The notes beneath the pieces were generated by a model. That model made no database searches, was not told the origin of the DNA, and worked only from the letters and a program-made list of their open reading frames with translations. Below are positions 1-1,158 of a stretch of DNA of 10,463 nucleotides, piece by piece. The DNA lies in assembly GCA_031276335.1 (NCBI GenBank), contig JAISNH010000085.1, positions 1 through 10,463 of the forward strand, in the 5' to 3' direction. Source of the DNA: Rickettsiales bacterium. Its GTDB lineage: Bacteria > Pseudomonadota > Alphaproteobacteria > Rs-D84 > CACZYB01. Numbering within the stretch: position 1 is the first letter of the stretch; every line of letters starts with the position of its first letter. Position numbers and translations under genes: made by a program.

Positions 1-346
1 CTGCGCGCGCGCGCGGCACCGCCCGGCGGAGCTGTCCGGAGGAGAGCAGCAGAGGGTCGCAATCGCACGGGCACTTTCCAACAACCCGGCCATACTGCTT
101 GCGGACGAGCCGACCGGCAACCTCGACCCCTACAATTCCGAATCGGTGTTCAACCAGCTGCTGGAGCTTGTGAAGAAAGAAAATATGGCCGCGCTGGTCG
201 CCACGCACAATCCGATGCTGGCGGCGAAAACGCACCGGCAGGTCGCCCTCGTCGACGGGAAGCTGCTGGACATACGCGCGAAGCAGGACATCGCCATGCT
301 GAAGGCCAGCAAGGCCGGAAAAAAAATCCTGGAAAGCTTCAAATAG
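1..346 (+). CDS. lolD: LolD, lipoprotein-releasing ABC transporter ATPase (3' part)
   Basis: Only the last 114 codons are in the window; the frame is open from base 2 and ends at TAG 344-346. Seen: the ABC signature LSGGEQQRVAIARAL, a Walker B with D-loop (ILLADEPTGNLD), and the H-loop histidine in ATHN. The Walker A lies upstream, outside the window. The wording HRPAELSGGEQQRVAIARAL followed by VFNQLLELV is typical of alphaproteobacterial LolD, the cytoplasmic ATPase that powers LolCE to extract lipoproteins from the inner membrane and pass them to LolA. After the usual end near VALVDGKLLDI there is a basic tail of about 22 residues, longer than most LolD proteins. The final G of the stop codon is the first base of an inserted element (346-1150), so the present stop was completed by the insertion. 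Another MacB/FtsE-type ATPase is possible but less likely from the signature context. Confidence 0.92.
   Translation, partial: CARARHRPAELSGGEQQRVAIARALSNNPAILLADEPTGNLDPYNSESVFNQLLELVKKENMAALVATHNPMLAAKTHRQVALVDGKLLDIRAKQDIAMLKASKAGKKILESFK
338..345. repeat. Target-site duplication, left copy (TTCAAATA)
   Basis: Identical to 1151-1158 and directly abutting the left inverted repeat. It covers the last codons of lolD (TTC AAA TA-). AT-rich 8-bp target. Confidence 0.85.
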
Positions 347-389
347 GCAATTGCATACTTAGTAGACCCGGAATTTAAAATTTATGAAA
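346..389 (+). repeat. Left terminal inverted repeat of the cassette
   Basis: Pairs with 1107-1150. The first 35 positions differ at only three places (354, 370 and 373 against 1142, 1126 and 1123), and the match runs on to position 44 with one more mismatch at 382. It starts with the last base of the lolD stop and contains the HD gene's stop codon and final codons. Confidence 0.9.
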
Positions 390-1079
390 GTTAGCCAGGA
401 CATACTTGTATTTTTTCAGTATATTCAGCCATTCAGACGCCTCATTCTCGGTAAAGAAGCATTTCATAAAATCATACATTATCTTATGCCTTTGCAATGC
501 TTCCCTCTTTGCAGAATCTGTGATGATAAAATTTTTTATTCGCAGTAATTTATCAAAATAAATATTTACCGCGGTTGTTTTTGATTCGCTTTTATACGCT
601 TTGTAATTGACGGTGTCTTGCGGCAGCAAATTCCTGTCGAAAACAGGGTTTCCTTTGTTGATGTTGTAAAACATGGTTCTGAAAATTCCAGTCGCTCCAA
701 TGCCGTCAATCATATCGGCGTCTGAAACGCAGGCACCCTCTAAAGAATCGGGCCTGATGCCTTTGAGCAATTTGCTGTAACCCATGTTTTGTATTATTTT
801 TATAATACTCGGGCGAATTTCCAACGGAACATCGGCCGTTTCCATGATTTTTTTTGCATTGGGAAGATTTTCCCCGGCATCTTTTCCAAATAATTTATAA
901 TCATCGCAATCATGCAGCAAAGCGGAAATTGCAACTATATCTTTATCTGCGCCGCAATCATCCGCAAACCTCATTGCCCAATCATAAACACGAAAAGAAT
1001 GTTCGGCTCCATGCGCAAAATCGCGATCGCCCAACAGATCATAAACTTCTTGTTTTATTTGCCTTATTATTTTATCCAT
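375..1079 (-). CDS. YedJ-like HD-domain phosphohydrolase (cassette cargo)
   Basis: 234 residues, ATG at 1079, TAA at 377-375. HD-superfamily metal ligands are visible: H27 in AEHSFRVYDWA, H56-D57 in LLHDCDD, and D122 in SDADMIDGIGA. The pattern after the last aspartate (DGIGATGIFRTMF, then YFDKLLRI and RHKIMYDFMKCF) follows E. coli YedJ, a family of soluble HD phosphohydrolases whose substrate is not settled. The histidine expected about 20-25 residues before D122 (AAHSFS in YedJ) appears replaced in IIQNMGYSK (residues 95-103), so the metal site may be simpler than in YedJ. No signal peptide or membrane segment. The ribosome site is weak (no clear GGAGG). Codon use is AT-rich, unlike every neighbour, which fits horizontal arrival with the surrounding inverted repeats. 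It is the sole gene of the 346-1150 element. Its role there, whether fitness cargo or anti-phage nucleotide hydrolase, is unknown. Confidence 0.85.
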   Translation of the reverse strand: MDKIIRQIKQEVYDLLGDRDFAHGAEHSFRVYDWAMRFADDCGADKDIVAISALLHDCDDYKLFGKDAGENLPNAKKIMETADVPLEIRPSIIKIIQNMGYSKLLKGIRPDSLEGACVSDADMIDGIGATGIFRTMFYNINKGNPVFDRNLLPQDTVNYKAYKSESKTTAVNIYFDKLLRIKNFIITDSAKREALQRHKIMYDFMKCFFTENEASEWLNILKKYKYVLANFHKF

Positions 1080-1106
1080 TTATGCGATTCTGATTAGTTT
1101 TTATTT

Positions 1107-1150
1107 TTTCATACATTTTAAACTCTGGGTCTACTAAGTATACAATTGCC
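1107..1150 (-). repeat. Right terminal inverted repeat of the cassette
   Basis: Reverse complement of 346-389 at 40 of 44 positions. It lies upstream of the HD gene and may supply its promoter: on the minus strand there is TTGTAT at 1145-1140 and TAAAAT at 1120-1115, but the 19-base spacer is longer than ideal. Confidence 0.9.
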
Positions 1151-1158
1151 TTCAAATA
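1151..1158. repeat. Target-site duplication, right copy (TTCAAATA)
   Basis: Identical to 338-345 and directly abutting the right inverted repeat. It runs into the hairpin at 1154-1181. Confidence 0.85.

Follow-up and report, generated by a model that had tools for sequence, protein, structure and literature searches.

The HD hydrolase gene described here likely constitutes the cargo of a mobile insertion cassette, an element in which a YpgQ-like gene lies between IS1595-type ends and which was presumably moved in trans to the end of lolD. The stretch of DNA analysed (10,463 nucleotides, hereafter the window) is the entire contig C23 of the draft genome G000 (746 kb, 117 contigs, 77% complete). 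An earlier note on this DNA had proposed a transposase-less mobile cassette, and that proposal is borne out by the paired ends, the target duplication, the lack of a transposase and the finding of same-end cassettes with other cargo in genomes G182 and G192. Mobile insertion cassettes are already known as a kind; what appears to be new is the end family, the cargo and the hosts.

Table 1 Features of the element and its flanks (window coordinates).
Feature	Position	Strand	Basis and remarks
lolD 3' part, broken only at its stop	2..346	+	ORF; family LolD orthologues L120-L125 end no more than 1 residue from the same place
Left target-site duplication TTCAAATA	338..345	.	Identical to 1151-1158
Whole element	346-1150		805 bp; two inverted ends and a single gene between
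Left terminal inverted repeat, probable IS1595-type end GGCAATTGCATACTTAGTAGACCC...	346..389	+	40/44 against right end; same end type in G182, G192
HD-domain metal-dependent hydrolase, 234 aa (function predicted)	375..1079	-	ORF list; PF01966 6e-8; YpgQ-type active site
Right terminal inverted repeat GGCAATTGTATACTTAGTAGACCC... (read on - strand)	1107..1150	-	40/44 against left end
Right target-site duplication TTCAAATA	1151..1158	.	Identical to 338-345
Terminator-like hairpin GCTGTC-CGAAC-GACAGC	1160..1176	.	Scan: 2 terminator-like sites against a shuffle mean of 1.2, weak

Borders and content of the element

Recomputation of the terminal inverted repeats (Table 1) gave agreement at 40 of 44 positions, the figure that the earlier note had counted, and a repeat search lengthens the pair to 45 nt (91%). 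In 100 first-order Markov shuffles of bases 1-2400 no inverted pair of 44-mers agreed at more than 34 positions, which together with the perfect 8-bp duplication on both flanks, also present as claimed, rules out chance repeats as the source of the ends. Two further observations of the same note stand: the element is AT-rich, with a GC content of 0.375 against 0.587 in the rest of the window, and the stop codon of the HD gene (377-375) falls inside the left repeat. The HD gene is the sole ORF of at least 80 aa entirely within the element, which holds no transposase gene, and the HD family PF01966 is the one Pfam family found in its 805 bp, leaving a passenger gene unrelated to transposition. 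Four features by which mobile insertion cassettes are recognised are present, namely inverted transposable-element ends, no transposase, a passenger without a role in transposition and a target-site duplication. We propose that an IS1595-family transposase encoded elsewhere would have paired both ends in trans, and that the cassette would have entered the end of lolD by an 8-bp staggered cut.

Comparison with known mobile elements

Among known systems one of the closest is MIC231 of Bacillus cereus, a mobile insertion cassette; the term and its definition are set out in extracts of PMC2266710, PMC3129680 and PMC3281130. The window element resembles MIC231, so far as these extracts describe it, in having insertion-sequence ends around a passenger gene, no transposase and the capacity to be moved by a cognate transposase elsewhere. 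MIC231 differs in its IS231 ends, which belong to the IS4 family, whereas the window cassette combines IS1595-type ends with a nucleotide-type HD hydrolase as cargo. Within the IS1595 family itself, the transporter insertion sequences MTnSag1 and tISCpe8 appear in an extract of PMC5704250; these share with the window element the IS1595-type ends (25 bp there), the passenger genes and the target duplication, but according to the same extract keep the transposase that the window cassette lacks.

Titles and abstract openings of the literature on IS1595 with passenger genes, mobile insertion cassettes or MITEs mention no transposase-less cassette with such cargo, a scope that does not extend to the family paper of Siguier 2009; a joint search for IS1595, MITE and '8 bp' found nothing. 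Cassettes without a transposase are seldom annotated, as an extract of PMC3129680 states, and several papers related to mobile insertion cassettes deal, by the parts available, with qnr resistance genes in cultured bacteria. The present case adds a draft genome from a little-known lineage, in which the sole passenger encodes an enzyme of the house-cleaning type.

Cassettes with the same ends

Comparison of the ends with related genomes, which the earlier note had suggested as a check, found the same ends around other cargo, each time with a perfect 8-bp duplication, so that there are at least three cassettes with the window end type in its order. A strict 24-base end pattern, allowing 3 mismatches, matched one further genome among 201 of the order, G182, where a 526-bp element (L047:3061-3586) is flanked by AACAAAAG and has a short deletion in its left end. 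It holds two overlapping small ORFs of 81 and 50 aa, the former with a signal-like start by eye, and neither has a Pfam family above its cut-off. The third cassette, from G192 (L112:2094-2535, 442 bp, duplication TAAATCTT), was retrieved only with looser patterns, the relaxed pattern described below and then a gapped pattern in 191 genomes; relative to the window type it is shifted by one base at the left end and is one base short at the right. Its sole ORF of at least 90 aa entirely inside encodes 115 aa with matches to PRA-PH (6e-11) and MazG (3e-6), and the nearest solved structure is DR2231, a MazG-like nucleoside triphosphate pyrophosphohydrolase. The cargo stop codon abuts the right end in G192 and falls within the left end in the window element. 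Both sister cassettes lack a transposase and come from the same order as the window genome, and because same-end cassettes carry other genes we reject the HD protein as the transposase itself.

Further copies of these ends are rare. In G000 the ends are single copy at 3 mismatches; at the same threshold the 201 genomes of the order yielded nothing beyond G182, with or without a transposase, and only the own genome was found among 385 class and 388 phylum genomes. No transposase with exactly the window's ends was seen in any of these three sets. A second gapped pattern matched only the own genome among 191 of the order, and gapped-pattern matches in G108 and G175 had no paired end in their loci. 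In viral_contigs the exact patterns found nothing; the gapped pattern gave 85 stretches, and the 80 loci scanned had no paired end with an exact 8-bp duplication. Whole-element blastn against plasmids and phages gave no match covering more than 13% of the query among the matches listed.

Parent family of the ends

The ends of the window element carry a terminal GG and an 8-bp duplication, as do the transposase-bearing IS1595 elements of the order, in two of which (G101 and G038) a common end layout, roughly GG.AATT.TATA..TA.T..ACCC, surrounds PF12762 transposases, again with 8-bp duplications. These sequence features make IS1595 the probable parent family. The transposase-bearing elements match the window end at 15-18 of 24 bases, with no closer one found, and the best match, 20 of 24, is in a G073 cassette without a transposase.

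A relaxed end pattern run on 191 genomes matched 61 times outside G000, fewer than its reversed control with 69 (both counted by hand). Most such matches are therefore noise, and what ties the window to this second end type is the pairing of the ends and their duplications, as opposed to the number of matches. We examined the neighbourhoods of 20 of the 61 matches (16 of 19 stretches), leaving out the other 41. Fourteen of these 20 belong to elements whose ends pair up and whose 8-bp flanks match (G038, one; G073:C26, two; G079, one; G101, four; G159, two; G192, one; G196, three), with the two G159 ends on different contigs and two of the three in G196 sharing 7 of 8 flank bases. A fifteenth, G073:C42, is the same end as in G073:C26 at a contig edge, and for the remaining five no partner end was found. 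Apart from the G192 cassette, the elements recovered in this way have ends of the type GGTAATTATATACTTACTCGACCC.

The largest of these elements is a 9.8 kb transposon of G101 (L099:1070-10867, contig C2; duplication GTCTTTTT), whose ends match the window at 17 and 18 of 24 bases. It encodes two different transposases of 329 and 552 aa (PF12762 3.9e-31 and 3.6e-11; NF033547 1.9e-47 and 1.9e-24, both over the cut-off), a serine resolvase, an FtsK-like ATPase and further ORFs. The same genome has a transposase-less cassette of 1187 bp that encodes a 199-aa protein; one end of each element is identical at 71 of 80 bases, against 41-59 of 80 for the other three pairings, and hence an IS1595 donor transposon and a transposase-less cassette coexist in G101. 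This makes IS1595 trans-mobilisation directly testable in one genome, and the ends of the sister cassettes offer searchable patterns. The G038 insertion sequence (2.4 kb, duplication AAAAATTT, ends 15 and 17 of 24) carries one IS1595 transposase and an extra 199-aa ORF. An element of G073 (L101:1671-3870, contig C26, 2200 bp) holds a resolvase, identified by likeness to that of G101, and an ankyrin-repeat protein, with no transposase seen in it, and a transposase-less element of G079 (L106:1939-4315, contig C14, 2377 bp) encodes adjoining AAA+ and DUF7192 proteins. The AAA+ protein matches AAA_5 and has a weak CobS similarity below cut-off. Two MITE-size elements with related ends occur in G196 (L108:1847-1967, 121 bp, and L109:1966-2192, 227 bp), their 8-bp flanks agreeing at 7/8 and 8/8 positions, respectively.

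PF12762 is present in 14 of 191 genomes of the order; no PF12762 or IS1595 transposase was found in the 77% of G000 that the draft represents. Among the transposase loci scanned in the order, a GG-ended pair with an exact 8-bp duplication occurs at L049, L055, L056, L099 and L110 and at no other. Both G040 and G042 have two adjacent open frames with PF12762, of 337 and 565 aa, sizes like those of the G101 pair.

How single genes came to lie between such ends can be considered in this light. Passengers in IS1595 transposons of the order, followed by loss of the transposase, would provide one plausible path, and the window element may itself have arisen by deletion from a larger IS1595-type transposon with its own transposase, in which the HD gene formed part of the passenger load as opposed to having been captured on its own. 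Extra ORFs in the IS1595 elements of the order (that of G038, and several in the G101 transposon) and the MITE-size derivatives of G196 fit such an origin, while the 805 bp show no transposase remnant, the HD gene being their only ORF of that size and their only Pfam match, and the cargo is unrelated among the three same-end cassettes. We regard a deletion origin as a serious possibility, though on balance somewhat improbable; it concerns origin and is compatible with the element being a mobile insertion cassette.

It is also conceivable, but in our judgement unlikely, that the ends derive from another transposase family with 8-bp duplications, e.g. ISL3, whose elements likewise produce them. 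The assignment to IS1595 leans on ends matching at 15-18 of 24 bases, and the genomes of the order, class and phylum yielded no transposase with the exact ends, both of which leave room for a different parent; the enclosure of PF12762 transposases in G101 and G038 by ends of the same layout with 8-bp duplications argues for IS1595.

The HD protein and its relatives

Searching a large protein database identified 102 other homologues of the HD protein (E of 1e-3 or below) among 260 candidates, none above 49% identity. Most of the named relatives come from alphaproteobacterial metagenome-assembled genomes, the chief ground for taking G000 to be alphaproteobacterial as well. The solved relatives are 2PJQ (4e-27), 3DJB, 3DTO, 2QGS, 3B57, 2PQ7 and 5DQV (4e-13), the last being YpgQ of Bacillus subtilis, which is described in an extract of PMC8177086 as the only biochemically characterised protein of its group and as an enzyme that depends on Mn and takes both dNTPs and NTPs as substrates, i.e. 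a (d)NTP pyrophosphohydrolase. When the window protein is aligned with 11 proteins chosen from the 102 homologues, H23, H27, H56, D57, D122 and R134 are invariant in all 12. These residues correspond to H25, H29, H58, D59, D124 and R136 of YpgQ, as given in that extract, at a constant shift of two, a correspondence that is an offset of residue numbers as opposed to a residue alignment to 5DQV and that leaves YpgQ H158 and F140 unmatched. The two HD proteins therefore appear to share their metal ligands, which in the window protein would be H27, H56, D57 and D122, and a nearby histidine and arginine, H23 and R134; they differ in that overall similarity is low, as the E-value indicates, and in that no mobility is described for YpgQ in the text available. 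Since the YpgQ active-site residues recur at a constant shift and are invariant, (d)NTP hydrolysis would be the most likely activity of the window protein. The earlier description of the protein as YedJ-like holds only loosely: as a YedJ equivalog it is rejected, with PRK10119 scoring 34.3 bits, far under the NCBIfam cut-off of 286, and YpgQ and its structural-genomics homologues provide a better comparison.

The HD gene is present in four of 11 family genomes, counting that of the window, and was not found in the other seven. In G001 (contig C29, L097/L098), of the same family, the homologue is split across two reading frames. A tree was calculated from 22 of 43 homologous loci in genome_contigs together with G007, G010 and the window. 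L010 and L013 dropped out because their matched stretch contains an internal stop, and G001 was left aside for its split frame, which gave 23 rows. The window protein forms a long branch that joins no starred group and is closest by path to G007, of the same family, at 47%. None of the 43 loci holds a pair of window-type ends; three contain a single stretch that differs from the ends at 6-7 of 24 positions, which is expected by chance. The long branch and the lack of paired ends at the homologues thus point to no source for the window gene. At L004, an AT-rich HD gene in a GC-richer contig was considered as a second mobile copy and discarded, as no ends were found. Separately, 110 bases of a Bacteriophage sp. 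sequence from human faeces (MT836804.1:427-536) match part of the HD gene (71% identity, E 5e-4) and may represent a further HD gene that is mobile.

Possible roles of the cargo

The HD protein is probably, like YpgQ, a (d)NTP pyrophosphohydrolase that depends on Mn, and its gene may have been retained because a cleaner or smaller nucleotide pool is at times of benefit. The MazG-type cargo in G192 agrees with this reading. That two of the three same-end cassettes carry unrelated nucleotide hydrolases is suggestive of selection, a pattern noticed post hoc in a sample of three.

Integron gene cassettes with a MazG-type enzyme were reportedly described by Robinson in 2007, and these resemble the present elements as mobile single-gene units with a putative house-cleaning enzyme. 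They differ in mechanism, as integron cassettes move through attC/integrase recombination, while the window element has paired inverted ends and a target duplication. One could speculate, with little confidence, that the order has a transposon-based counterpart of integron cassettes, in which IS1595-type ends repackage single genes into cassettes of 0.4-1.2 kb and (d)NTP pyrophosphohydrolases of unrelated families are spread preferentially by one end type, of the HD/YpgQ type in the window and of the MazG/DR2231 type in G192. This would amount to a mobile function in nucleotide-pool sanitation or dNTP limitation.

As dNTP hydrolases can serve in phage defence, the HD protein might alternatively be an effector that depletes dNTPs during infection, a role that the earlier note had raised and that we find doubtful. 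AAA+ and ankyrin proteins among the cargo of related cassettes could be read in its favour, but in PADLOC the HD protein matches no known defence gene, so the suggestion gains no support there, and the element offers a single gene with HD as its only Pfam domain.

A reading of the HD gene as an ordinary part of the chromosome, its inverted ends arising by chance or from two unrelated insertions, can safely be set aside: in the named genomes, 43 of 43 HD loci, some with short flanks, lack inverted ends (up to 8 mismatches in 24) that are accompanied, within 1.5 kb, by an exact duplication of 8 or 9 bp, as would suit such a gene, but the likeness of the window ends and their perfect duplication lie far beyond chance, the gene's patchy presence in the family speaks against it, and the shuffle test and GC contrast together refute it.

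Insertion site and downstream flank

The cassette was inserted exactly at the end of lolD, where the stop codon TAG (window 338-346) now takes its TA from the duplicated target and its G from the first base of the element. Orthologues were compared in nine of the ten other family genomes, the best match in G004 (2.5e-18, 46%) being judged non-orthologous; six of the nine (L120-L125) end at the same place or within one residue of it, and three end 21-23 residues earlier. When the flanks are joined without the element, the lolD frame reads through (TTC AAA TAT...) and the stop is not restored, which implies either that the right junction lost a base or had one altered once the element was in place, or that the target had already lost its stop. 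We favour the former, as a change that may have occurred where it no longer mattered. The earlier note had also proposed a comparison of the region downstream of lolD in relatives. By eye, the 130 bases 3' of the stop in the nine orthologues hold no element-type end, and a true empty site was not found.

On the other side, the hairpin (Table 1) sits between the right duplication and a convergent Cys-rich gene. The latter (1176-1832) encodes a 218-aa protein that looks secreted by eye and has no family above cut-off; without a match in the other 10 family genomes, it is unusable as a marker of the empty site. Tandem tRNA-Leu genes follow at 1932-2018 and 2143-2227, with anticodons caa and cag, and are 89% alike across a 28-base stretch at their starts.
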